Part shown: positions 5,831-41,393 of the stretch, one piece after another
Layout of the letters: the number at the start of each line of letters is the position of its first letter
Numbering within the stretch: position 1 is the stretch's first letter
IMG/VR virus record: IMGVR_UViG_3300010935_000132
Location: 1 to 53,555 of that record
DNA from: a virus
DNA length: 53,555 bases
Strand: one strand, 5' to 3'
Translations under genes and position numbers: made by a program
The notes under the pieces: generated by a model
Seen by the model: only the letters and a program-made list of their open reading frames with translations
Databases searched by the model: none
Told to the model about the DNA's origin: nothing

Positions 5831-7432
5831 TTATTTAGTGTTGTTATACACCCACTTAGTAACACCACAGTCATATATTCTATAATATCCTCTTTCATTC
5901 ATTATTTCCTTTTCTGTTTTATTTTCATCATAGCCTTGTCTGACTAGAATATGTTTCATACATTGGCTTCTGCTTAAAGTGTCATCACTATCCTTAGTGT
6001 TGAAATACCTGTATGATGCAGGGCTTACACTATGAAATGTAAATCCTATCTTCTCATAGGTCTTTCCTAATCCATACGCATTATCAGAATATGATAGTAT
6101 AGAAGCGTGTGCATGACTTTTCTTGAAGTGTGATAACATCTTGCTAACACCACCAACAACACTCAATCCAATTTTAGTACAGCTTCTTATAATCTCATAA
6201 TCATAAGATTTATCATACCTTGGTTTTTTGAATGTCATGCACCCAATCAACTCACCATTTAAAAACATACCAACATAATCAGATGACCCACAAAACCCTT
6301 GAATATGATTATCATTAATAAATTTAGAGGCAGTCTTAGAATCAATGTTTATACATGATGTTTTTCTAGCGTATATTCTTTCGCTCATGCCTAACATGTT
6401 CAATAGCCTACCCTTAACAATATCCTTTTTGTTGCTCCACATAGTATCAAAAATAGTAATCAATGTTACACCTTTATCAGCACACATTTGCCACTTCATT
6501 TGATGATATTTCTTATCCCTGTTGGTTTGTTTATTATCAGGTGAATGCCAATAAGAACCGCAAAATTCAATAGCAATCTTTAGTTCAGGTAAAAATATAT
6601 CCAACTCATAAGGTGCGATTAGTTTTCTATCACCACTTCTAATCTTTCCTTTGTAGTTACTCTTTATAAAATTCAATAGACCAAGTTCGGTGCGTGATTT
6701 ACAATACCAAGTTCCTTTTGGTTTAATTATGTTATGCCTTTTCATGAATCCGTCTAGGATTTCTACCGTAACATCTAATAACTCACATGTATGAGTGAAT
6801 GTTAAATTATCTAGCATGTCTTGTAGTTTAGAGGACATACACAAATCGTATGTATATTGACCCTGTTTCTCTATGAACTCTTTATCCAATCTAGCAAGTT
6901 GTTTATCCATATCCTGCATAGATTGACCATACTTTTCTCTTTTTGCAGAAACAATTTTAGAAAACCTAGAAGTCTTTTCTCCTTCCGTCAAAGACTCATG
7001 AAAATCCTTTCTTTTCTTTATAGCGTTTGGGGTTGTTCCATTTTTAAAAGATTCTTTATCTTTAGCCCTACATGAGCAAGAACAATATTCATAATAACCA
7101 TGTGAAATTTGTTTGAATGCTGTATCTTTATCACACACAGCACATACACCTTTTTTATTCCCTAGAGCTAGGTATAGTTCTTCGCCTTCCCATTCTGTTA
7201 TATTCATTCTTTTTAGTAAAGGTTTGTAGGACTTTGGGTAAGTATTATATATTATTATCAACTGTTCTTTTTTTGATAACTGACCATCTACTAATAATAG
7301 GCTATCTAATCGAATATCGGTCATGTCTTTGCCAAACTTATTCTTTATTTTTGTCAAGACTTTTGATGTGGTTAAATTGTATTTGCTTGCTAACTGACCT
7401 AGTGATAGTTTTAGTATGTCATTAATTTCCAT
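5831..7432 (-). CDS. Homing endonuclease, Vsr/EDxHD-like nuclease with C-terminal GNAT-like domain
   Basis: At 533 aa, the N-terminal third is helical with a Cys cluster (CAVCDKD, YCSCSC) likely to bind zinc. Residues about 265-345 hold YELDIFLPELKIAIEFCGSYWHS followed by HQMKWQMCADKGVTLI-IFDTMW, the signature of Vsr-like (EDxHD) homing endonucleases. The last 170 residues carry the associated domain with GELIGCMTFKKPRYD, VVGGVSKMLSHF and SYSDNAYGLGKTYEKIGF. It is free-standing downstream of nrdB, and its neighbours look intact. Its start sits behind a long hairpin and a late-promoter-like ACTAAATA. It would spread itself by cutting alleles that lack it. Confidence 0.85.
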   Translation of the reverse strand: MEINDILKLSLGQLASKYNLTTSKVLTKIKNKFGKDMTDIRLDSLLLVDGQLSKKEQLIIIYNTYPKSYKPLLKRMNITEWEGEELYLALGNKKGVCAVCDKDTAFKQISHGYYEYCSCSCRAKDKESFKNGTTPNAIKKRKDFHESLTEGEKTSRFSKIVSAKREKYGQSMQDMDKQLARLDKEFIEKQGQYTYDLCMSSKLQDMLDNLTFTHTCELLDVTVEILDGFMKRHNIIKPKGTWYCKSRTELGLLNFIKSNYKGKIRSGDRKLIAPYELDIFLPELKIAIEFCGSYWHSPDNKQTNRDKKYHQMKWQMCADKGVTLITIFDTMWSNKKDIVKGRLLNMLGMSERIYARKTSCINIDSKTASKFINDNHIQGFCGSSDYVGMFLNGELIGCMTFKKPRYDKSYDYEIIRSCTKIGLSVVGGVSKMLSHFKKSHAHASILSYSDNAYGLGKTYEKIGFTFHSVSPASYRYFNTKDSDDTLSRSQCMKHILVRQGYDENKTEKEIMNERGYYRIYDCGVTKWVYNNTK

Positions 7433-8898: not shown

Positions 8899-9127
8899 TT
8901 CTAACCACCACCTGAAGGATTTTATTACCCAAAATAAGTGTATATGGAACTACAGATTTCTTGGCTAAAATCAACTGCCTTCTGAATCTCCAAAACAATA
9001 TTTCAGCTTCGTATGCATCCTTAGCGTAGCAGGTAACCAAAAGGTTACCTGCCTTGGTTAGTTGTTCGAGATACTCACCGATAAAGGATGAGTCTTCCTC
9101 TTTATAGATTTCGCTTACGCTGAGCAT
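8888..9127 (-). CDS. Hypothetical protein (79 aa)
   Basis: The start at 9127 (ATG, MLSVSEIYKEED) is preferred to the GTG at 9136 because AAGAG lies 8 nt upstream. It overlaps the end of nrdA. The protein contains LEQLTKAGNLLVTCYAKDAYEAE and a hydrophobic strand near the C-terminus (PYTLILGNKILQVVV). No family recognised. Confidence 0.65.
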   Translation of the reverse strand: MLSVSEIYKEEDSSFIGEYLEQLTKAGNLLVTCYAKDAYEAEILFWRFRRQLILAKKSVVPYTLILGNKILQVVVRNEH

Positions 9128-10209
9128 GCAACACACTCTTCATTTTCTACATCTTGTGATGCATAATCTTTTAGGCTATTTCTAACAATAACACCATCAA
9201 CTTTTTCCATCTTGGCAGACTTAGTAGCACGACAGTAGTATAAAGACTTCAATGGAACACCACTACCCTCTTTTGAGAAGGCGTAAAGATGAACTTTATG
9301 CACATAACGTTTTGGTGCGCCTTCAGTAAAGAACAAGTTCACACTTTGCGCTTGACAAATGAACTCTTGACGAATCCTTGCTTGCTCAACAACAAACATC
9401 ATATCAATCTCATTAGCGGTTTTAAAGACTTTCTTCTGATGGTCATCCATCCATTCTAAACCTTGAACAGAACCATCAGCCTTGATAACTTCCATCCATT
9501 GTGCATCAATCCACTCTTGACCAAATACCATTGTGAAAGCGTGTGCTTCAAATGCCTTCTGTAGGTATGGATTCTTGACCACATGTGAACCAACACGCAA
9601 CTTATGCACGTACGCATTAGCTTTGATTGGCTCAATTGATGCTGATGTGTTGCCAATGATAGACGAATTTGCATTAGGTGCAATAGCAAATATCGTAGCA
9701 TTACGCATACCTGTACCAATTAAGTCCTCGGGTTCACCACGTTCTAATGCAAGTTGCTGTGATGCTGCAATACCTTGCTTATTCATGTGGCTGAAAATCT
9801 TGCTAGTCCATTGGCAACCTGAATCAAATCCACCTGATTCAAAAGCAATGTTATTCTTCATGAGGAAGTAATGCCAACCCATACCACCGATACCGATATC
9901 ACGTGACTTGGTAGCAGAATTAACAGCACGCCAAAGTTCTTTAGGTGCATTGTCGATAAACCATGTCAAGACATTATCCAACAAGTAGACGATATCAGCA
10001 ATCATTGTTGTATCTTTCCACAATTCAAACCACTCAATATTAGGTGACGATAAGCAACATACAGCAGTACGCTCTTCATTAATTGGAATAATGATTTCTG
10101 TACAGTTATGAACCACTAGACCGTTGGCGTAAAAGTTATGATTACCTGATACGTTTATATCATAAACGCTTACCTTCTTATTTATTTTCTTTCTTGTTAT
10201 CTTTAACAT
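9115..10209 (-). CDS. nrdA: Split-intein C half (35 aa) fused to the NrdA C-terminal half
   Basis: Residues 1-35 are an intein C-terminal segment: VYDINVSGNHNFYANG followed by LVVHN, with the terminal His-Asn. Splicing would join the next residue, Cys of CTEI, to the N-extein SSNI made by the 11136-12329 gene. The remaining 329 residues are the class Ia reductase C-terminal half with the ICQAQSVNLFF, YCRAT and C-terminal CVACSA redox Cys pair. Ligation at NI-CTE rebuilds the conserved N-x-C-x-E active site, so the +1 Cys of the intein is also the thiyl-radical Cys of the enzyme. The start overlaps the homing endonuclease stop by 7 nt. Confidence 0.92.
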   Translation of the reverse strand: MLKITRKKINKKVSVYDINVSGNHNFYANGLVVHNCTEIIIPINEERTAVCCLSSPNIEWFELWKDTTMIADIVYLLDNVLTWFIDNAPKELWRAVNSATKSRDIGIGGMGWHYFLMKNNIAFESGGFDSGCQWTSKIFSHMNKQGIAASQQLALERGEPEDLIGTGMRNATIFAIAPNANSSIIGNTSASIEPIKANAYVHKLRVGSHVVKNPYLQKAFEAHAFTMVFGQEWIDAQWMEVIKADGSVQGLEWMDDHQKKVFKTANEIDMMFVVEQARIRQEFICQAQSVNLFFTEGAPKRYVHKVHLYAFSKEGSGVPLKSLYYCRATKSAKMEKVDGVIVRNSLKDYASQDVENEECVACSA

Positions 10210-11099
10210 ATATCTCCATTCTTATGTTTTATATAGTCATTTCTACTTTTTCTGATGTTGTTCTTTTGCCTAATGGAGCGTACATTACCATATTTGTAAT
10301 CAGTACCATTAGTTTGGTTCAATTCATTAACTATGGCGTTTAAAAGGTCTTTCTGAGTACCGCCTTTACAGAAATTGTTACTAACCCACACCATAGACAC
10401 TTTCTTAAACTCCGTAAACTCTAATTTTATTTCCTTTGTAAATATACTCGTTTTAATGTATCCATCTTCTATGGCTCGCTCGGCACATAATAATACACGC
10501 GCTCTCCTTTCTATAGTCATTTCTTTATAGTTACTGTTTCCAGAACCTTTATACTTCTCGCTATATTCTTGCTTTCTTGATTCTGAAAAAGTAGAACCTT
10601 TGGAATGATGTACGTATTCGCCGCTTATAACTCTAGGGTCACTACACAACATTCTACCATAATAAACACCTGTTAAGGCATGTCTAACATTAATCTTACC
10701 TTTATTAATATTAGACATGGATTTTGCTCCAACTTCCCTACAATACTCATAAAATCTTGAGTTTGAACCCCTAAAATTTATGCTTCTTGTATGTTTGTTC
10801 ATCACCTTAGAAAAAAAGAAATTTAATGCTGCTCCATGTTGATAACCATACCGCTTACCATCGTGTATTTTAAAGAGTAAGATATGGGATAATATATGTT
10901 CTCTAGCAGTTAAAAGCACTAAATTTACTTTATCGTCTGGGTCTCCAGGAAGATGTCCTTTTTGACCTTCTCTACTACGCGCATAAAACATAAAATCAGG
11001 TATGATGTGGTGCTTCTCATAATAAACACCACACCCCTTTTTCCTTCCCTCTTGTTTAGCCCTAGTCATTAGTTGTTTATAAATTTTTAAGTAGTTCAT
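10203..11099 (-). CDS. HNH homing endonuclease between the two split-intein halves
   Basis: At 298 aa the protein has YYEKHHIIPDFMF followed by DKVNLVLLTAREHILSHILL, the HNH layout of phage free-standing homing endonucleases. The C-terminal part carries repeated small basic segments typical of their DNA-binding regions. It replaces the endonuclease domain that a normal mobile intein would hold inside its own frame. It has its own T4 late promoter ending 5 nt before ATG 11099, and its stop overlaps the start of the C-intein gene, so it can be translated with NrdA-C. Its target is presumably an uninterrupted nrdA. Confidence 0.88.
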   Translation of the reverse strand: MNYLKIYKQLMTRAKQEGRKKGCGVYYEKHHIIPDFMFYARSREGQKGHLPGDPDDKVNLVLLTAREHILSHILLFKIHDGKRYGYQHGAALNFFFSKVMNKHTRSINFRGSNSRFYEYCREVGAKSMSNINKGKINVRHALTGVYYGRMLCSDPRVISGEYVHHSKGSTFSESRKQEYSEKYKGSGNSNYKEMTIERRARVLLCAERAIEDGYIKTSIFTKEIKLEFTEFKKVSMVWVSNNFCKGGTQKDLLNAIVNELNQTNGTDYKYGNVRSIRQKNNIRKSRNDYIKHKNGDIC

Positions 11100-11104
11100 A
11101 CTCC

Positions 11105-11112
11105 TATTTATA
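11105..11112 (-). promoter_or_regulatory. T4-type late promoter for the HNH endonuclease
   Basis: An exact TATAAATA on the minus strand, followed by GGAGT and then ATG. The predicted transcription start falls on or next to the A of the start codon, so the mRNA would be leaderless. The GGAG is only 1 nt from ATG. Confidence 0.75.
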
Positions 11113-11135
11113 CAAAATGATAATTTCAGTTCAAA

Positions 11136-12329
11136 CTAACTCACTAGAACGTCTGTACTGACAAGTTCTCCTGCCGCAACATAACCCCTATTTTTTGTTA
11201 AAACTAGATGTTCTGGTGTACATTCAATAACTTTACCATCAAATTCAATAACCATAAGTTCATCTACAATCGCCGTTTCAGCCGAAGCCACAACCAAAGA
11301 AAATTCTTCTTTGTGTGTTTCGGTATTAAATGATTTTACGTAAATTTCGGTGTAATATCCCATGTTGAACATTTCGTTAAATTTATCTAACTCAATAACA
11401 ACTGGATTCGCTCCATCTATAGTTTCACTTATAGTTATTTCAGTATTACCGACCAAGCATATGTTGGATGACTTAACTTCAAGACCCATTGCTTTTAATG
11501 CAGCATTCATCTTGTCGTTTGATTCATCTACATTATGAAGATATGGTTCGCCTGTTCTAAAGCGTGTTTCAAGAATTTCTTGCCATAATTCACGGGCTGA
11601 TGGTATAGTTTCTACAACTTCACCTGTGTCAGGCGCAATCAAATCCCACGACTCATCATTAATACAAGCATCCATAAATGCATATGTGAGATTAACCCCA
11701 ATATTAACATTATGTGCTTTACGGTTAATATCGCCACCAGTAGGGTTACGGATACCAATAAATTCTTGGATATCAGGGTGACTAATATCAAGGTATGATG
11801 CTACAGAACCACGGCGTGTTCCTGCTTGATGATAATACATGATATTAGAATCTTGTGTTTTAGCGTAGGGAATAGCACCAGGAGATTTAGAAGTGATACC
11901 GCGCATACCCAAGTATGAACCTACACCACCACCTGCACATGATAGGTTAGCCAATTCCTTAGCAGCTTCAATCTGACCCTGTAGTGTATCAGGTACAAAT
12001 TGGATGAAACAGCTAATAGGCATGCCTCTAATCTTATCACTATGCATGTATACACCATTTTCCCAAGTTCCCATAACTGAATTACTCAATAGTGGCGATG
12101 CAAAGGACATCCAACCTTGTGAAACATAATCATATAGCCGCTGTGCAAGTTTCATATCACCTGCACAAAAGTTAATAGCTGTTCTTGCGTATGCTTCTTG
12201 TGGTGATTTTTCGTTTTTCTTTAAGTAGTAGCCAACCACAAGTGACTTGCCTACCGTATTTAGATTATCATCCCTAGAATAGTCGATGGTTAATCCGTGA
12301 TATTTCTTAATTGTCAAAATTTTCTCCAT
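11136..12329 (-). CDS. nrdA: NrdA N-terminal half fused to split-intein N half (107 aa)
   Basis: Residues 1-290 are a class Ia ribonucleotide reductase large subunit. They include SFASPLLSN, the GMPISCFIQF redox Cys and GVGSYLGMRG. Residues 291-397 are an intein N-terminal segment beginning with Cys (CLVGNTEIT), with block B CTPEHLVLT and GYVAAGELVSTD near the end. It stops at 11136 without a C-terminal intein block, which is supplied in trans by 9115-10209. The spliced enzyme would be about 619 residues, shorter than E. coli NrdA (761). About 150 residues are missing at the N-terminus, including the allosteric ATP cone. The start overlaps the primase stop. Confidence 0.92.
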   Translation of the reverse strand: MEKILTIKKYHGLTIDYSRDDNLNTVGKSLVVGYYLKKNEKSPQEAYARTAINFCAGDMKLAQRLYDYVSQGWMSFASPLLSNSVMGTWENGVYMHSDKIRGMPISCFIQFVPDTLQGQIEAAKELANLSCAGGGVGSYLGMRGITSKSPGAIPYAKTQDSNIMYYHQAGTRRGSVASYLDISHPDIQEFIGIRNPTGGDINRKAHNVNIGVNLTYAFMDACINDESWDLIAPDTGEVVETIPSARELWQEILETRFRTGEPYLHNVDESNDKMNAALKAMGLEVKSSNICLVGNTEITISETIDGANPVVIELDKFNEMFNMGYYTEIYVKSFNTETHKEEFSLVVASAETAIVDELMVIEFDGKVIECTPEHLVLTKNRGYVAAGELVSTDVLVS

Positions 12330-30119: not shown

Positions 30120-30962
30120 TTATTTGTTACCTTCTAAGGCGTTAATTAGTAGATTGAATACTTCCATGATGGCATCACGAACGATTAATAGGTCAGCTTC
30201 AACAGATTCACCATCAAATTCAACATCATACTTAATACCTTTCAAGGTCAAGTCATCTACCAACGTGAAGCTAACAGATTCAGTACCCATTGCAAGCTGA
30301 TTAACACGGTAACCACCATTAATCAATTTCTGAACATTTTCTTGCTGCATGATTTGATTCTTGAATGTAGCTTTTTGCTTATCGTGGGTCAAAACACCAC
30401 TATCCAACACACTTAATTCATCAATACCAACCAAAGAATTATCTTCAATAACCATACGTGTCATAAGCAACATAGGGTCTGATGGTAGGTTTGGAATGGT
30501 TAATTGCATACCAAGTGATTTTAGTAGTAGTACCATGATTGTATCACATTGATTTTTAGACGTACTAGACATCAAAATCTGATTAGTGTTTTGTAGAATC
30601 ATAACCTGTACTGATTTTGTTACTGTTAGTGCATTAACCATCAAGTCAGCCAATACCAAATCTTTCAGTTCTGAACGCTCAGAACGACTAGGTGTATGAC
30701 CATTTGATGCTTCAAATTTAACAATACGTTTATCAAGTGCACTACGGATAGCTGATGCAGGTATCATCTTTTCGCTTAATGTATACCGTAGAGAAATAAT
30801 ATCTTCTGATACAATATATCGTGTTCCATTTTGTACATCCCAACCTGCATGTGCTAATTCGCTTGGGTTTAAATCACGTGATGCATATGCCTCAAGTTTA
30901 TTTTCCAACGAAGATAGGCTAAGGTCTTCAACTCTATAATTATATAACGTACATTTCTTCAT
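30120..30962 (-). CDS. rdgC: RdgC-like DNA-binding recombination modulator
   Basis: At 280 aa the protein follows the RdgC pattern along its length: LYNYRVEDLSLS, LNPSELAHAGWDVQNG, IPASAIRSALDKRI, ELKDLVLADLMVNALTVTKSVQVMI, then VLTHDKQKATFKNQIMQQENVQKLINGGYRVNQLAM. Bacterial RdgC forms a ring dimer round DNA and restrains RecA. In a phage with its own UvsX, it could shield phage DNA, restrain host RecA or regulate strand exchange. It is shorter than E. coli RdgC (303 aa) but spans the whole protein. Confidence 0.85.
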   Translation of the reverse strand: MKKCTLYNYRVEDLSLSSLENKLEAYASRDLNPSELAHAGWDVQNGTRYIVSEDIISLRYTLSEKMIPASAIRSALDKRIVKFEASNGHTPSRSERSELKDLVLADLMVNALTVTKSVQVMILQNTNQILMSSTSKNQCDTIMVLLLKSLGMQLTIPNLPSDPMLLMTRMVIEDNSLVGIDELSVLDSGVLTHDKQKATFKNQIMQQENVQKLINGGYRVNQLAMGTESVSFTLVDDLTLKGIKYDVEFDGESVEADLLIVRDAIMEVFNLLINALEGNK

Positions 30963-33950: not shown

Positions 33951-34502
33951 TTAATTACAACTATTATAATGAAGATAACCACCAATAATATACTTATCAC
34001 CTGATATTGGCATTTCACCTGCATGTGGATACGTCCATGTAGGAGGAAAAATCAGCACACGACCACGCTTAGCTTTAACCTTAACACCATAGTCAGTGAA
34101 TGAAGTTTCGCCACCTTCCTCGACATCATTTAGGTATAGGAAGAAAACAAGGAATCGCCGATTATCATGTAGGTTATTAACATCAACGTGTGGGCTGAAT
34201 TGACCATACCCTGCATCATACTTCTTCATACGAAAATCTTCGAACCTAACTTCATCTGGCCATTGGTATTCTTTAACACCACAATCATCACAGTATTGTT
34301 TTATGACCTCGATGAATTTATTCACTACCGCATCTCTCACATCATCAAATGCATCGTTAAGTGTTGTATCAACCACACGAAAAAAACGGTGACCTTCTAC
34401 AATATCAAGTTCTGATTTAGCTGATTCGAATAGACTGATTAGTAATCCACAGTCATCTTCCGAAAACACATCATCGTAAACCTTTACATATGGGATATTC
34501 AT
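33951..34502 (-). CDS. 2-oxoglutarate/Fe(II) oxygenase (prolyl-4-hydroxylase-like)
   Basis: The protein (183 aa from ATG 34502) has the Fe-binding HVD in YGQFSPHVDVNN, a double-stranded beta-helix core (RFLVFFLYLNDVEEGGETSF), and the distal His-Arg/Lys region (RVLIFPPTWTYPHAGEMPISGDKYIIGGYL). Such enzymes hydroxylate proteins or nucleobases; T4-like aquatic phages often carry one of unknown substrate. AGGA lies 8 nt before ATG 34502. It follows the polymerase stop closely. Confidence 0.82.
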   Translation of the reverse strand: MNIPYVKVYDDVFSEDDCGLLISLFESAKSELDIVEGHRFFRVVDTTLNDAFDDVRDAVVNKFIEVIKQYCDDCGVKEYQWPDEVRFEDFRMKKYDAGYGQFSPHVDVNNLHDNRRFLVFFLYLNDVEEGGETSFTDYGVKVKAKRGRVLIFPPTWTYPHAGEMPISGDKYIIGGYLHYNSCN

Positions 34503-34512
34503 ATTCATCATC

Positions 34513-37095
34513 CTATTCAAACATACTTTCTAGTGTTGCAACTTTCTCCGATTTCCAACCAACCGCACTAAGCATTGCTTCCATTGGGTCAAGAAAGGTT
34601 TTCTGATACATAGTAGGATAATCAATACAGCTATCCAAGTCAAACACTTTAGGTAAATCAAGATGTGATGGGAATCCAACCACCTCATACTTGATATGAT
34701 TTGGTAACCGCAAATCAACAAATTTAATCTTATCAGCATCAACAATTGGTTTACTATCACTAAGACCATATTCTTCAATCAAGTGGTTGTACATTAGAGC
34801 AGCTTTAACCTGCTTAGGCGCACCTTTAGCATGTATGGTTGATGAACCCTTATACTTTTGAATGTTATTAACACCACGTGGATATGCGATGGATTCAACA
34901 GGTAGGGTCTTAAACTCTTTCTTGAATAGTGCGATGTAATCTATAACGGTTTGTTCATCAGTGGTTAGCATTAGGCGTACAGCTTCTTTAAGCACCTCTC
35001 GACACTTCTTAGGTGTTGATGATTTAACGATTTCAAGACCCATGATTTTAAGCTTAGGTTCAGTGTATCGAACACCTTCGGAATCATGCACCAACATAGC
35101 ATAACGCTTCTTAGCAGTCCAAAAACTCTTAGAAGTGATATTCTCACGACTCATGTTCATCTTTTGCTCTCTAGCGTTCATGATATCAGCTAACTCTTGA
35201 TACCAAATATTAAGTTTCTTCTGTATGATATCAGCAAAGAACTTGTCAAGGAAATTAACCCTATCTTCGGTAGTTCCTTTATCAGGATTAGGAAATACTT
35301 TAGCTACGATACCTTCCATATTAACGTACACTGAATCGGTGTCAATTGCTACAATATAATCAACTCCAACAGTACCTAAAGCCTTATTGATAAATTTGTT
35401 AATCTTGTTCTCAATCCATCTAATAGATAACTGACCCGATGTTGTAATAGCAGTAGCAATACGGATATCATAGAATTGGAATGATGATTGACCGATTGCC
35501 CCGTAACCACTATTCAAAAGTACCTTAATACCCTTTTGCGCATTATCACCTGTTGAAATCTTCTGTTCTAAATCATGTATAACTTTAGGGTCATTATTAC
35601 CTGCTTTTTCATTAACCAAAAGCTGCTCATTATGAAGCATCTCTTTCTTAATAGTTTTTCGTGTGGCATACAACATCTTCATCAGGCTAGAGAAGAATGA
35701 CTCTACTTCGCGTCTAAACAACTCACCATTTGCAGTAACACAAAGGTCTTTGTCAACTAATGATGAGGTGTCTATTGTCTTATCAATAATAGCATCAATA
35801 TTCTTATTGAAGTCACCTGAAAATTGGTCTTGAATTGGCTCTTTACGCTCATGAATAGTGTCTGGACCTAGATTATATTGAAAAATAAGATGTGGATATA
35901 GACCATCCAAATCTAATGATGAAACCCAATTATACATGTTTCCAATCGTAGGCTCTTTGACGTAACCACCAGGATACTGTTCTTTCTCTTTTGGTGAACC
36001 TTTTACTTCGGCTTGCTGACCACGTTCACGCAAGAAGTGGAATATTAAAGCTTCCCAGGTCTTAACAGGTGAAAAGGTATCGTTGTATGGCTGTTTACAG
36101 TGATAGGAAAGGTATAGAACCAAATCCATTAGGCTCATTTTCTCATCAAGTTCTTTGACCAATCGAACATCATGTATATTGTAATCACAGAATCTTGAGT
36201 GGTCTTTTACATATAAGTCTTTAATCGTACCCAAATCAGAATAATCAAGCTTCTGTGACCCTAACTCAAAGTTTGAAATGAAGTCTAGACTATATGACTC
36301 TTTTCCTGTATAGGTATACTTCTTATAGAGCATCATATAGTCAAGGATTGATACACCTACAATATCCCAGTTGACGACAACATTCTTAAAGTTGTCTAGT
36401 GTTTCTCTAGACTTAAGCTTACCCCATGGAGATAGGTAGTTTGCTGCGTCTTGACCCAATACAGCACGGATACGATTAATGATGAATGGAATATCAAACC
36501 CTTCGATGTTCCAACCTGTTACCACATGTGGCATATTAGTGTGCCAATACTTCAACACGCTTGATAGTAGGTGCTTCTCATCCCTACAGTTATGTACAAT
36601 TACTTCAGGGTCATCCGAAGAGTATTCTTCTCTAAAAGCCCAAATATGGTACTTCTGTTCAAATGAATCATGTATGGTGAATGTAACAATTGGATGTGTT
36701 GCTTCGTGTGGGTCAGGAAACCCAGTGAGCGTCAAAGAAATAGTCTCAATATCAAAATTGAATACTCTAATCTTGCTCATATCATATTTTAATTCTTGGT
36801 CATACTCACGTGAAATAAACTGAGTAATCCAATTTGAATTACCGTATACTTTGTATCCTTCAACACCTTTATATTGGTCGATATGTTGCTTAGCATCATA
36901 GATGGTATCAAAATTCTTAGTCTGTAATGGTTGACCCTCTAGGGTAGCATACTGTCCATCTACAACTTCTCTTGCAGGTACATACAATTCAGGCTGAAAC
37001 TTAACCTTTCGGTTGACGTGACTAATACCATCAAATTCTCTTACTAAAAGTGTGTTGCCTTGTCTATCTATATTTGTGAAAAATCGCGTCATCAA
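34513..37095 (-). CDS. 43: DNA polymerase (T4 gp43-like, family B)
   Basis: At 860 aa the protein has 3'-5' exonuclease motifs FNFDIETIS, WNIEGFDIPFIINR and YNIHDVRLV, and polymerase motifs SLDLDGLYPHLI (A), KVLLNSGYGAIGQ (B) and AIDTDSVYV (C). The C-terminal residues form a hydrophobic clamp-binding tail. It replicates the phage genome with clamp gp45 and loader gp44/62, is a natural target of RegA repression in T4, and stops with TAG. Confidence 0.97.
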   Translation of the reverse strand: MMTRFFTNIDRQGNTLLVREFDGISHVNRKVKFQPELYVPAREVVDGQYATLEGQPLQTKNFDTIYDAKQHIDQYKGVEGYKVYGNSNWITQFISREYDQELKYDMSKIRVFNFDIETISLTLTGFPDPHEATHPIVTFTIHDSFEQKYHIWAFREEYSSDDPEVIVHNCRDEKHLLSSVLKYWHTNMPHVVTGWNIEGFDIPFIINRIRAVLGQDAANYLSPWGKLKSRETLDNFKNVVVNWDIVGVSILDYMMLYKKYTYTGKESYSLDFISNFELGSQKLDYSDLGTIKDLYVKDHSRFCDYNIHDVRLVKELDEKMSLMDLVLYLSYHCKQPYNDTFSPVKTWEALIFHFLRERGQQAEVKGSPKEKEQYPGGYVKEPTIGNMYNWVSSLDLDGLYPHLIFQYNLGPDTIHERKEPIQDQFSGDFNKNIDAIIDKTIDTSSLVDKDLCVTANGELFRREVESFFSSLMKMLYATRKTIKKEMLHNEQLLVNEKAGNNDPKVIHDLEQKISTGDNAQKGIKVLLNSGYGAIGQSSFQFYDIRIATAITTSGQLSIRWIENKINKFINKALGTVGVDYIVAIDTDSVYVNMEGIVAKVFPNPDKGTTEDRVNFLDKFFADIIQKKLNIWYQELADIMNAREQKMNMSRENITSKSFWTAKKRYAMLVHDSEGVRYTEPKLKIMGLEIVKSSTPKKCREVLKEAVRLMLTTDEQTVIDYIALFKKEFKTLPVESIAYPRGVNNIQKYKGSSTIHAKGAPKQVKAALMYNHLIEEYGLSDSKPIVDADKIKFVDLRLPNHIKYEVVGFPSHLDLPKVFDLDSCIDYPTMYQKTFLDPMEAMLSAVGWKSEKVATLESMFE

Positions 37096-37179: not shown

Positions 37180-37944
37180 TTAATACTTATTTAATTCTCC
37201 GCGCTTAGCTTTGAACTTGTGTAGTTCGACCCAAGCGGTTAATTGACGCTTGATATCTTCCTTACATTCTCTCATTAGAGTAGCCACAATTAATGATGTA
37301 GGAAATCCATCAATAGTACCTAAAGATTGTCGTGTAATCATCTTATCCTTAACATGTTTGAAAAAGATATTATGGCTTAGGATGTCTGCAATCGGTCCAG
37401 AATATTTTACAGGTGAAATACCACATGTGTAGACTGAACTAACAGTGGTACATTGTGCCATATAATGCTTAGCAAACTTAACACCCATATTATTATCTGA
37501 TGGTCGACGAATAACCCTTGGTGAAGGTAGTTTGGCATCGTCAAATAAATGTAGATAACCGCGATTAAGGATATGATGCACCAACTGATGAAACATAACC
37601 CTCGTTCGAATACCATCAAACGTCAATCGGTACAATGTACCAAGTTTGTTACATGGCTGTGATTCATAACCATCTTTGTCGATGATTTGACATCTTTGAA
37701 GGTCATAGTTGATATCATCAGGTAAAACAATAATATCAGATACAGGATTGGCTGATAAGACTGACAATATGTATCGAACATCATAAGTCTTTTTACGACC
37801 TGCTTTAGGTGTAGATAATCTGATTGTTCCACTCTTGGTTAAACTCATAGGAGTCATATTTCGAATTGATACAATCTCACCTTTAACTAGAGTGTAGTTT
37901 TTCTTTATTATTGTGTACTCTTCTAATGAGTCAATTATATTCAT
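37180..37944 (-). CDS. Hypothetical protein (254 aa)
   Basis: A basic protein with the segment GTIRLSTPKAGRKKTYDVRYIL, QLVHHILNRGYLHLF and a Lys/Arg-rich C-terminus (RQLTAWVELHKFKAKRGELNKY). A nucleic-acid-binding role is possible. No motif or family is recognised. It closes the operon DHFR-methyltransferase-CmoA-kinase. Confidence 0.75.
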   Translation of the reverse strand: MNIIDSLEEYTIIKKNYTLVKGEIVSIRNMTPMSLTKSGTIRLSTPKAGRKKTYDVRYILSVLSANPVSDIIVLPDDINYDLQRCQIIDKDGYESQPCNKLGTLYRLTFDGIRTRVMFHQLVHHILNRGYLHLFDDAKLPSPRVIRRPSDNNMGVKFAKHYMAQCTTVSSVYTCGISPVKYSGPIADILSHNIFFKHVKDKMITRQSLGTIDGFPTSLIVATLMRECKEDIKRQLTAWVELHKFKAKRGELNKY

Positions 37945-37954
37945 TTGACTTATG

Positions 37955-38479
37955 CTACTCCATCATTAACAATGCGTCAACATTTTTGTACAACTTATCT
38001 AATGAGCCATCATTAAGGATAAGTTCATCTGTATGATGTGTAATGATTCCTGATTCAGAACTATGAACATTTACAAGTTCTTGGTTAGGTCTTATGATGT
38101 GAACAATAGTGCCACCATTATCACGAATCCAATCAGCTTCATTATCGAAACGAACATCACTGATGACATTATTTGCTTCGAAGTTCAAGCCTCTAGATAG
38201 TCGCTTAATCCAAAAGTCTTCACCAAATACATCACGTGTACTTTCTGTACCAAATTTCTGAAGCAACTGACGAACCGTAGCATCATATTCAGGAACAATA
38301 CGTGTGTCCTTTTCGTCATCGTAACACCATGCAACAGGAATACCAAAATAGATTGCTGCAGACTGTTTAAGTGCATCAGCAAAGGCAAATTTCAAATACC
38401 CACTTCTATTCATTTTATCAGCTAAGGTATCCTTACCACTACGCGCCAAACCTGTTAATCCATATAATTTCTTAGTCAT
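37955..38479 (-). CDS. 1: Deoxynucleoside monophosphate kinase (T4 gp1-like)
   Basis: The protein has a P-loop GLARSGKDTLADKM followed by FAFADALKQSAAIYFG, RQLLQKFGTESTRDVFGEDFWIKRL and VISDVRFDNEADWIRDNGG, the T4 gp1 kinase pattern. In T4 it phosphorylates dTMP, dGMP and the hydroxymethylated dCMP. The start at 38479 overlaps the CmoA-like stop (ATGA). Its place beside a possible DNA-modification pair is notable; a modified-nucleotide kinase role here is speculative. Confidence 0.85.
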   Translation of the reverse strand: MTKKLYGLTGLARSGKDTLADKMNRSGYLKFAFADALKQSAAIYFGIPVAWCYDDEKDTRIVPEYDATVRQLLQKFGTESTRDVFGEDFWIKRLSRGLNFEANNVISDVRFDNEADWIRDNGGTIVHIIRPNQELVNVHSSESGIITHHTDELILNDGSLDKLYKNVDALLMME

Positions 38480-39144
38480 TTTATCGCCATCCATCCACAA
38501 AAATTATGATTTTGCCAAAATTGAAAACACTTGGAAAATCCACACTGTCTAATATAACCATTTTCACCAACCAAATCATCTAGGATGTTAGGTCGCATTA
38601 TCTCACGTAAAGAATACTCTTTGTCTAAAATATCACTGTCAGAAAAACTCTTCCGTTTGAAGTCATAATGTATTGATGAAATTATACTCTGTGTTCTAGC
38701 ATCATCAATGAAAACTTTCTCTGAAAATACGAATACACCACCAGGATTTAATCCATCATATATCTTGCGTACAAGATTTATTCTATCTATAGTGTTCATA
38801 AATTGTAAAGTGAATATAGAACTAATAAATGATGCATGACTCCAATCATCATAAGCGCAGGCATCACCCTTATAGAAATCAACATTAAGTGAGTTATGAA
38901 GGTCTTTTGTGAAATTTTCTTCTATCTCTATACCAACATAACTCACATTAGTCTTACTATTACTATCTTTCAACCTATGAAGCATTTTTCCTGTTGAACA
39001 TCCAATATCAATAACCTTACTATGGTCTTCAATAAAGAATCTAGAAATATCACAAACATCATCAATTAATGATGAATAGCCGCGAATAGACTTGTCGATA
39101 TGACTATCAAAATTTTCCACTGTTGAAAACGAAAAATCACTCAT
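38476..39144 (-). CDS. CmoA-like enzyme (carboxy-SAM synthase candidate)
   Basis: At 222 aa the protein matches E. coli CmoA over its length: SIRGYSSLIDDV near residue 19, the SAM-binding VIDIGCSTGKML (44-55), FTLQFMNTIDR (111-121), GLNPGGVFVFSEK (131-143) and the distinctive HYDFKRKSFSDSD (159-171). CmoA converts SAM and prephenate to carboxy-SAM, normally used to modify tRNA wobble uridine through CmoB. There is no cmoB in this window; the partner here is an overlapping C5-cytosine DNA methyltransferase. The residue aligned with CmoA Arg199 appears to be Tyr, so carboxy-SAM production is likely but unproven. It could also be a plain methyltransferase. Confidence 0.75.
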   Translation of the reverse strand: MSDFSFSTVENFDSHIDKSIRGYSSLIDDVCDISRFFIEDHSKVIDIGCSTGKMLHRLKDSNSKTNVSYVGIEIEENFTKDLHNSLNVDFYKGDACAYDDWSHASFISSIFTLQFMNTIDRINLVRKIYDGLNPGGVFVFSEKVFIDDARTQSIISSIHYDFKRKSFSDSDILDKEYSLREIMRPNILDDLVGENGYIRQCGFSKCFQFWQNHNFCGWMAIK

Positions 39145-40327
39145 TAATAGATAACTCCTTATAAGGCTTTATTATAGTATTATATAATTGTGTTGATATC
39201 GCCTTATACATTTTTGGTGCAACCATACGACCAATTCTCTCAGCTTGTTGGTTGAACTTTCCAGTTAGAACTAGGTCATCAGGTAACCCCTGAATCCTCT
39301 TCAACTCATCAATGGAAAATTTTCTATCTTCATCATAATGTACCGTACCTGCTACGCTAGTCTGTACACCTCTTTGTGTTAATGTTGGGCATGGTAGAAA
39401 TGGGCTACTTCTAGTTAGGTTAAAGTAAGAGCCTTTTGGATGAACATCAGCACCACTACCTATAGATATTTGATTTTTTGGTATGAGTGAAGTCCATCTT
39501 AGTAATTCACCAGTAACACCTAACATACTACGCTCTTCGTCTGTAACAACAATATCATCAATTGCATTACAAAGAGGAACAAATGTACTATTATTCCAAC
39601 CGATAGGAAATACCTCATTAGCTAATGAGAAATCATCAATATCTAAGACTTCAGCCACATCGTCACGAACACAAACAAAAATTAATCTTTCCCTTCTTTG
39701 AGGTGTTCCATAATGCTGAGCAAATAATGTCTTAGCAGTTACAATATAACCACAAGATTTCAAAGACATTATTATTTCGTTGAATTTCTTCTTAGACTTC
39801 CCAAGTAATAATCCTGGTACATTTTCAGCTATGATAATTTTAGGCTTTAGCCCTTCAGCAATACGAACATATTCAAAGAATAAGTCTTCAATGTTAGTTA
39901 CTGTTTTTCCATCAGAATACTTCTTTTCTTTACCCCAACCATCACTACCCTTCCCACATACAGAAAAGGCTGAACATGGTGGACTACCATCCAATATATC
40001 CAACTCGCCTACTTCCATACCAGAAGATTTTAGAAAGTCTTCTGGAGTGAAACTCTTTATATCACCATGTAATACTGTGGTGTCTTTAAAGTTTTCTAGG
40101 TAAGTGGCTACAGCCTCATCAACAAACTCATTAACTGTTCGTATATCACCACCACCTAGCTTATACCCAATAGAAGAACCACCACCACCAGCAAAGGTAG
40201 ATATAACGGTAAATAGCTTTCTATCTGCTGATGCATTAACATCAGATAGTGTATATGGCTCATAAGGCATAAAATTATACTTATGAGCCATATGTTCTAA
40301 GTTCTGTTCGTATGTTAAAGCACTCAT
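39137..40327 (-). CDS. C5-cytosine DNA methyltransferase, candidate carboxymethyltransferase
   Basis: At 396 aa the protein has all C5 motifs: I FAGGGGSSIGYKLGGG (45-60), IV DGSPPCSAFS with catalytic Cys118, VI AENVPG with Glu168, VIII QRRERLIFV, IX RIQGLPDD and X QAERIGRMVAPKMYKAI (361-377). The target-recognition region between VIII and IX is about 125 residues. Motif X has Arg367 where most enzymes have Asn (IGN). In the CpG methyltransferase M.MpeI an engineered Asn-to-Lys change here lets it use carboxy-SAM. The 8-nt overlap with the CmoA-like gene argues for joint function. Confidence 0.9.
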   Translation of the reverse strand: MSALTYEQNLEHMAHKYNFMPYEPYTLSDVNASADRKLFTVISTFAGGGGSSIGYKLGGGDIRTVNEFVDEAVATYLENFKDTTVLHGDIKSFTPEDFLKSSGMEVGELDILDGSPPCSAFSVCGKGSDGWGKEKKYSDGKTVTNIEDLFFEYVRIAEGLKPKIIIAENVPGLLLGKSKKKFNEIIMSLKSCGYIVTAKTLFAQHYGTPQRRERLIFVCVRDDVAEVLDIDDFSLANEVFPIGWNNSTFVPLCNAIDDIVVTDEERSMLGVTGELLRWTSLIPKNQISIGSGADVHPKGSYFNLTRSSPFLPCPTLTQRGVQTSVAGTVHYDEDRKFSIDELKRIQGLPDDLVLTGKFNQQAERIGRMVAPKMYKAISTQLYNTIIKPYKELSINE

Positions 40328-40863
40328 GGTTTAATACCACCCAAATCAACAAACTCTACAATGTAGCCATGTTCTGAGGTGAACATGTTTTCAGACCCAC
40401 GAATAATAGGCAAAAACTTATTGATATAAGCCACAGTTTCACTATTAATACTAACATCACCTTTAAATTCATCGTGGAAGACAGTTAAATGGACGCAAGA
40501 ACACTCTTTAATGAACTCATCATACATTGTGCCGCCACCAATAAGAAAAACCTTGCTACGTGGCTCTACGTGCTCCTTAAGAGCATCTATTGATGTGATG
40601 ATGTGGTTATTATCGCCTACCATACCTTTAACGTTGTCAACATGCCGTGTAAGCACGATATTTTTACGGTTTGGTAGTGGTCTATATTGAGGTGGTAATG
40701 AATCCCATGTAGCGCGACCCATCAAAACGGTATGACCTTCTGTAAGGTTTTTAAATCGTTTCATATCTGCAGGTTCATGCTTCCATGGTAAGGCACTACC
40801 GTTTCCGATAGTGTGGCTTAAATCCATAGCTAGAATTGCTCTGAAATCATACTCGGAAAACAT
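40324..40863 (-). CDS. frd: Dihydrofolate reductase
   Basis: At 179 aa the protein has ILAMDLSHTIGNGSALPWKHEPADM (Met20-loop region), the catalytic acidic residue, VLMGRATWDSLP and VFLIGGGTMYDEFI. It regenerates tetrahydrofolate for nucleotide synthesis, and in T4 is also a baseplate component. It overlaps the methyltransferase start by 4 nt and the dUTPase stop by 1 nt, so it sits in the same operon. Confidence 0.95.
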   Translation of the reverse strand: MFSEYDFRAILAMDLSHTIGNGSALPWKHEPADMKRFKNLTEGHTVLMGRATWDSLPPQYRPLPNRKNIVLTRHVDNVKGMVGDNNHIITSIDALKEHVEPRSKVFLIGGGTMYDEFIKECSCVHLTVFHDEFKGDVSINSETVAYINKFLPIIRGSENMFTSEHGYIVEFVDLGGIKP

Positions 40864-41393
40864 TATAGTTTACCCGTAGAGCCAAATCCACCAGTACGAT
40901 TTCCATCATTGGTTGGTGCTTCATCAATGAATCCAATAGGTGAACGTTTAACAGTAACCAATTCACCTTGACAGATTCGTTCACCATCTTTGATGACAAT
41001 ACTAGACTCAGAAATATTCACCAACATAACAAATGTTTCTGCTACATAATCTGAATCAATCACACCTTCACCATTTGCCAACATCAAGCCTTGCTTAAGT
41101 GCAATACCCGAACGCATATGCAGGCGTAAAGATTGACCTTCAGGAACATCAAAAATGATACCTGTAGGAACAAGAACGCGCTGCTTTGGTGAGATAATAA
41201 TAGACTTGCTTTTATCACTATCAACTCGAACAGAATTAGACTCTTTTCTGTTATATCCACTATAAGCTAAAACAGAATCCTTGTGTTCTAGGCATGCTCT
41301 AATATCAAAGCATGCGGCTTCATCAGTTGCATAATTAGGCAATTCAACTGATTCGTGTAGTGGGTGTACACCCAAACCTTGGTTCATATTCAT
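40863..41393 (-). CDS. dut: dUTPase (dUTP diphosphatase)
   Basis: The protein carries the trimeric dUTPase motifs: ATDEAACFDIRA, LRLHMRSGIALKQGLML, GVIDSDYVAETFVML, ERICQGELV and the C-terminal GNRTGGFGSTG. It keeps uracil out of DNA and makes dUMP. The start at 41393 (MNMNQGLG) follows AAGG about 11 nt upstream; the longer frame overlaps regA. T4 gp56 is an unrelated dCTP/dUTPase, so this is a different solution. Confidence 0.95.
   Translation of the reverse strand: MNMNQGLGVHPLHESVELPNYATDEAACFDIRACLEHKDSVLAYSGYNRKESNSVRVDSDKSKSIIISPKQRVLVPTGIIFDVPEGQSLRLHMRSGIALKQGLMLANGEGVIDSDYVAETFVMLVNISESSIVIKDGERICQGELVTVKRSPIGFIDEAPTNDGNRTGGFGSTGKL

Follow-up and report, generated by a model that had tools for sequence, protein, structure and literature searches.

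The CmoA-CmoX-CmoY pathway has been demonstrated for Synechococcus phage S-B43 (Yang et al., Nat Commun, December 2025; PMC12783734). The S-B43 CmoA (SpCmoA) makes carboxy-SAM (Cx-SAM) with a kcat of 2.33 per s, compared with 0.23 for E. coli CmoA, and SpCmoX, a DNA cytosine C5-carboxymethyltransferase whose structure was solved with Cx-SAM (8YF3), uses it to carboxymethylate cytosines that lie in a GC context (PMC12783734). Arg350 of SpCmoX, which replaces Asn304 of M.HhaI, contacts the Cx-SAM carboxylate, and the wild-type enzyme accepts Cx-SAM only; glycine is then added by CmoY, and the glycyl-carboxymethyl base was found in S-B43 virion DNA (PMC12783734). In E. coli CmoA, the cofactor carboxylate is bound by Arg199 through a salt bridge (PMC3663124).

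The window analysed here is a 53,555-bp stretch that makes up one entire IMG/VR viral record and is probably a piece of a T4-like phage genome. Its minus strand carries a cmoX-like gene for a putative DNA cytosine C5-carboxymethyltransferase (39137..40327, 396 aa) and a cmoA-like gene for a putative phage-type carboxy-SAM synthase (38476..39144, 222 aa), which lie where the initial annotation placed them and show the 8-nt overlap that it described. That annotation had proposed a route from Cx-SAM to DNA cytosine that does without CmoB, and this proposal is supported by the identical scheme of S-B43, by shared diagnostic residues, by gene linkage and by protein identities of 45–48%. The idea was already published in December 2025, and the pair is a divergent new member of the known CmoA-CmoX pathway to 5-carboxymethylcytosine (5cxmC). 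We infer the activity of the pair itself from its homologues, its conserved residues, the linkage of the two genes and their genomic surroundings, and consider it very probable that this CmoA would make Cx-SAM and that this CmoX would write 5cxmC in the phage's own DNA.

The pair is situated in a tightly packed gene run inside a T4-like replication block, in the order sliding clamp, clamp loader genes, regA, dUTPase, DHFR, cmoX, cmoA, deoxynucleotide monophosphate kinase (dNMPK), a 254-aa orphan and DNA polymerase. Most genes of the block were named by Pfam (regA by PF01818), while the putative clamp and clamp loader names come from sequence and comparison with cyanophage S-CRM01. DHFR (40324..40863, minus strand; PF00186, 9e-35) lies upstream of cmoX with a 4-nt overlap (ATGA), next to dUTPase (40863..41393, minus strand; PF00692, 7e-18), and dNMPK (37955..38479, minus strand; PF21448, 1e-25) follows cmoA with another 4-nt ATGA overlap; a Shine-Dalgarno-like AAGGAG for cmoA sits within the end of cmoX. 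The initial annotation had taken DHFR, dUTPase and dNMPK as a hint of the pathway, and their Pfam matches confirm that they share the gene run with cmoX-cmoA, but the known pathway needs none of them; they are ordinary T4-like nucleotide genes, and a modification made on finished DNA does not require them.

An independent contig, L004 (IMG/VR 3300009408_000207), also has the arrangement dUTPase-DHFR-CmoX-CmoA-dNMPK, with protein identities to the window of 76% for CmoX and 66% for CmoA. Nucleotide identities at codon positions 1, 2 and 3 are.78,.88 and.51 for CmoX and.75,.79 and.50 for CmoA, and the better conservation of positions 1 and 2 indicates that the two genes are genuine and that purifying selection acts on them. 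The pair is neither an assembly accident nor a product of chance open reading frames. The 254-aa orphan of the cmoX-cmoA operon (37180..37944, minus strand) had no match in Pfam, PHROG and phage searches and is matched only by L004 (6476-7291), where its homologue is 41–46% identical; the C-terminus (TAWVELHKFKAKRGELN) is strongly conserved between these two contigs, the only ones in which a homologue was found. Directly downstream of the DNA polymerase gene, the window contains a 2OG-Fe(II) oxygenase gene (33951-34520, minus strand), and a 2OG-Fe(II) oxygenase is also annotated near uvsX in S-CRM01. An RdgC-like gene (30120-30962, minus strand; PF04381, 3e-32) is also present in this T4-like phage.

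As in S-B43, the CmoA and CmoX homologues of the window belong to one operon of a T4-like phage. The arrangement is different, since the S-B43 order is CmoA-CmoY-CmoX, whereas CmoX and CmoA of the window overlap directly, with no CmoY between them or nearby in the fragment, and are inserted in the dUTPase-DHFR-dNMPK block, which has regA on one side and the DNA polymerase gene on the other. Synechococcus phage S-CRM01 (HQ615693) resembles the window in that its CmoA and CmoX genes overlap near regA and DNA polymerase and its complete genome has no CmoY match, but the order there is CmoA-CmoX and the window proteins are just 45–48% identical to those of S-CRM01.

The partner of the cmoA-like gene, described initially as a C5-cytosine DNA methyltransferase, indeed matches PF00145 (4e-48). 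In a search of all PDB sequences, SpCmoX ranked first (8yf3_A; E=2.1e-101, residues 24-386), far ahead of M.HaeIII in second place (1.8e-17), and the window protein is 47–48% identical to the S-B43 and S-CRM01 enzymes. In the alignment, the catalytic Cys118 of the GSPPC motif (codon 39974..39976, minus strand) falls in the column of SpCmoX Cys98, while Arg367 in the GRMV sequence of motif X (codon 39227..39229, minus strand) corresponds to SpCmoX Arg350 and M.HhaI Asn304. The Cx-SAM contacts F25, E47, F48 and D69 of SpCmoX are F45, E67, F68 and D89 in the window, and every contact checked is conserved. The protein combines the features by which a CmoX was recognised, namely the SPPC Cys, the motif-X Arg, which was also the criterion of Yang et al., the Cx-SAM contacts and a linked CmoA. 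A basic residue mirroring the Cx-SAM-binding Arg is also found in the DNA carboxymethyltransferase M.MpeI N374K, according to Yang et al. (PMC12783734); that enzyme is engineered and has CG specificity, whereas the Arg of the window CmoX is natural.

A tree of 43 CmoX representatives and four distant relatives grouped the window with L004 alone (support 100/100), on a branch apart from the S-B43/S-CRM01 pair, with modest support for the deep nodes and long outgroup branches. The GC dinucleotide ratio is 1.10 in the window, which is no depletion, compared with 0.79 in the S-B43 stretch and 0.70 in the S-CRM01 stretch; although specificity cannot be read from such ratios, this difference suggests that the target site of the window CmoX may differ.

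The resemblance of the cmoA product to CmoA along its full length, as noticed at the outset, was borne out by TIGR00740 (3.3e-32), phrog_4752 (6e-54) and the PDB entries 1im8 (H. influenzae YecO), 4gek and 4iwn (both E. coli CmoA; E values of 1e-22 to 2.5e-26). The same entries are the leading PDB matches of the predicted fold (pLDDT 82.9), with TM scores of about 0.8, and the window protein shares both the fold and the Cx-SAM-binding scaffold with bacterial CmoA of the tRNA cmo5U pathway. Unlike bacterial CmoA, it has Glu and Arg in place of Arg199 and Glu203, lacks a CmoB partner in the window and falls below the equivalog cut-off. With TIGR00740 (curated cut-off, 193 bits), the window CmoA scores 112 bits, SpCmoA, to which it is 45% identical, 116 bits, the S-CRM01 CmoA 119 bits and E. 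coli CmoA 455 bits. As the proven SpCmoA is also below the cut-off, this threshold divides bacterial from phage CmoA and not active from inactive enzymes.

The residue aligned with Arg199 of E. coli CmoA had been read initially as Tyr, and this reading did not hold, as the aligned residue is Glu176 (codon 38617..38619, minus strand) and Tyr177 comes next. The supposed Tyr was accordingly rejected as a case against activity, since active SpCmoA likewise has Glu at this position, as do all phage relatives with a residue in the column (154/154, SpCmoA included). Four residues past the Glu, in the column of E. coli Glu203, an Arg is again present in 154 of 154 phage relatives; in the window this is Arg180 (codon 38605..38607, minus strand), a candidate replacement carboxylate-binding residue. 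Glu176 and Arg180 share one predicted helix (169-180), which would shift the Arg by one turn relative to bacterial CmoA, and Arg180 may, as judged from position only, replace Arg199 in carboxylate binding. SpCmoA is active without Arg199, so that its absence is no argument against the window CmoA. An apparent objection is thereby removed, as the missing Arg199 would lead annotation from sequence to reject a phage CmoA; the main text of Yang et al. (PMC12783734) holds no mention of Arg199. The cofactor-site pattern of SpCmoA in E. coli numbering (Y39, D62, G64, S66, E89, E164, Glu199 and Arg203) is complete in the window protein, and Asn132 of E. coli CmoA is Ile110 in the window and Leu in active SpCmoA. 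Distant phage CmoAs differ: PaBG retains Arg199 and Glu203, while TurkishDelight and two Staphylococcus phages have Arg in the 203 column without Arg199.

The presence of the same gene pair in other phages was examined in 160 loci, comprising 157 from three IMG/VR scans together with S-B43, S-CRM01 and the window. CmoX and CmoA occur together in 152 of them, a count biased towards typical members by retrieval with CmoX or CmoA profiles. In 135 of these 152 two-gene loci, CmoX comes first and CmoA follows within 150 nt; the two genes usually overlap (median -16 nt, measured on stop-to-stop frames). Arg occupies the motif-X column in all 174 related CmoX proteins with a residue there; a 'GNLA' motif picked up by regular expression in 34 CmoX proteins was a false match, as the alignment columns give Arg in all. 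Motif X also has Arg in named phages that bear CmoA, as GRSV in PaBG, GRAV in TurkishDelight, GRMV in Mcat8 and GRIC in Dickeya AD1, while Leu (Melnitz) or Met (Fpv5 and phi18:3) takes its place in the CmoX relatives of named phages in which no match to CmoA was found. This co-variation covers few lineages and carries no statistic, and since the Mcat8 CmoA was identified solely by reading the neighbouring open reading frame, distant CmoAs elsewhere may be missed.

In the proposed mechanism, CmoA would convert SAM and prephenate, a metabolite of the host shikimate pathway, to carboxy-SAM. In the double-stranded DNA of the phage itself, CmoX would flip out a cytosine, Cys118 would attack C6, and the carboxymethyl group would be moved from carboxy-SAM onto C5, with Arg367 of motif X picking carboxy-SAM over SAM via its carboxylate. 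The product would be 5cxmC at a short target sequence (GC in S-B43). Restriction enzymes that recognise the modified sites should be blocked by this base, and restriction protection is the presumed benefit.

Both proteins come from large SAM-dependent families and bacterial CmoA serves tRNA modification, so the pair might be regarded as an ordinary 5-methylcytosine methyltransferase that adjoins a CmoA homologue for tRNA (cmo5U) or other use. This explanation is already largely refuted and retains only a slight chance, given that the motif-X Asn of the SAM user M.HhaI is Arg here and wild-type SpCmoX takes Cx-SAM only, that CmoX and CmoA are linked in 152 of the 160 loci, and that no CmoB is encoded in the window, as the initial annotation had stated (best tblastn hit E=0.8, with the E. 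coli control detected). The tRNA content of the 53.5-kb window, with tRNA-Thr(UGT) as the sole tRNA gene, also counts against this explanation. SAM depletion was raised as a possibility by Yang et al. (PMC12783734), and the ten times faster SpCmoA, relative to E. coli CmoA (PMC12783734), would suit an anti-defence enzyme that mainly consumes SAM, comparable to phage SAM lyases, with DNA carboxymethylation being secondary. Such a main function is highly improbable, as CmoA so consistently accompanies a CmoX that has the motif-X Arg and uses the product of CmoA.

A further explanation refines the CmoA-CmoX reading and does not displace it: 5cxmC would be an intermediate, from which a CmoY-type ligase or another tailoring enzyme on the remaining genome makes an amide, for example 5-glycylcarboxymethyl-cytosine as in S-B43. 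The chances of this are about even. A CmoY-like gene is present in 85 of the 160 loci and accompanies both CmoA and CmoX in 81, and in a 157-kb contig (G002) CmoX and the non-adjacent ligase are some 17 kb apart; the absence of a ligase from a 53.5-kb piece of a T4-like genome is therefore weak evidence. On the other hand, the window gave no match to SpCmoY, Asn_synthase (PF00733), GATase_7, RimK or ParB, and S-CRM01, whose genome is complete at 178 kb, likewise had no match to any of these five; L004 had none to SpCmoY, Asn_synthase or GATase_7, and a 139-kb contig (G003) had none to SpCmoY. It is conceivable, at somewhat less than an even chance, that the lineage of the window and L004, perhaps with S-CRM01, has no CmoY-type ligase, that 5cxmC is the final base there or is tailored by an undescribed enzyme, that the sequence context is other than GC, and that the carboxylate-binding Arg of CmoA is one helical turn off. 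If so, the finished modification would be a negatively charged base. The lineage bears on whether 5cxmC may itself be the end product and not merely a handle. With it, the pathway described in 2025 reaches T4-like phages of another, separate branch, whose gene arrangement has yielded no ligase.

Elsewhere in the window, a 533-aa protein (5831-7432, minus strand), whose C-terminal part weakly matches the Mom family, was considered as a Mom-type tailoring enzyme and rejected, since its match to phrog_3339 (1.5e-99) identifies it as a homing endonuclease. The ribonucleotide reductase large subunit (9115-12329, minus strand) is split into the open reading frames 11136-12329 and 9115-10209, the latter of which has an intein splicing domain at its start (E=8e-6), and a homing endonuclease (10203-11099, phrog_655) lies between the two; the gene appears to be fractured and to contain a split intein.

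Several variations on the gene pair were observed among the relatives. In 17 of the 152 loci (L007, L013, L027, L043 and others), there are two CmoX genes in tandem, each of which has Arg in motif X; they perhaps reflect two sequence specificities. In Staphylococcus phages vB-SscS-F1 and SPbeta-like (L165:5986-8504 and L166:5968-7667), CmoA lies beside a C5-methyltransferase with Gly in motif X (VGGVI), and a filter on Arg would overlook such pairs. Methylophilales phage Melnitz (L167:4001-6185) lacks a CmoA match, and its CmoX relative with Leu in motif X is followed by a protein of 328 aa. By eye this protein resembles a TET/JBP-like dioxygenase, which makes the two a candidate pair for conversion of 5mC to 5hmC. 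A gene for an adenine methyltransferase of the MT-A70 family (PF05063, 2e-30) is located immediately upstream of CmoX in 23 loci (for example L096:5919-6479, L097, L105 and L110), and an uncharacterised gene of about 120 aa immediately downstream of CmoA in 26 loci of this type; this arrangement occurs in CmoX-CmoA fragments without CmoY and in none of the ligase-bearing loci. Moreover, a Mom-family gene (PF25680, 1e-55; L057:11783-12601) lies a few kb from CmoX-CmoA, with the family present in 4 loci, and phages of this type possibly combine adenine carbamoylmethylation with cytosine carboxymethylation.
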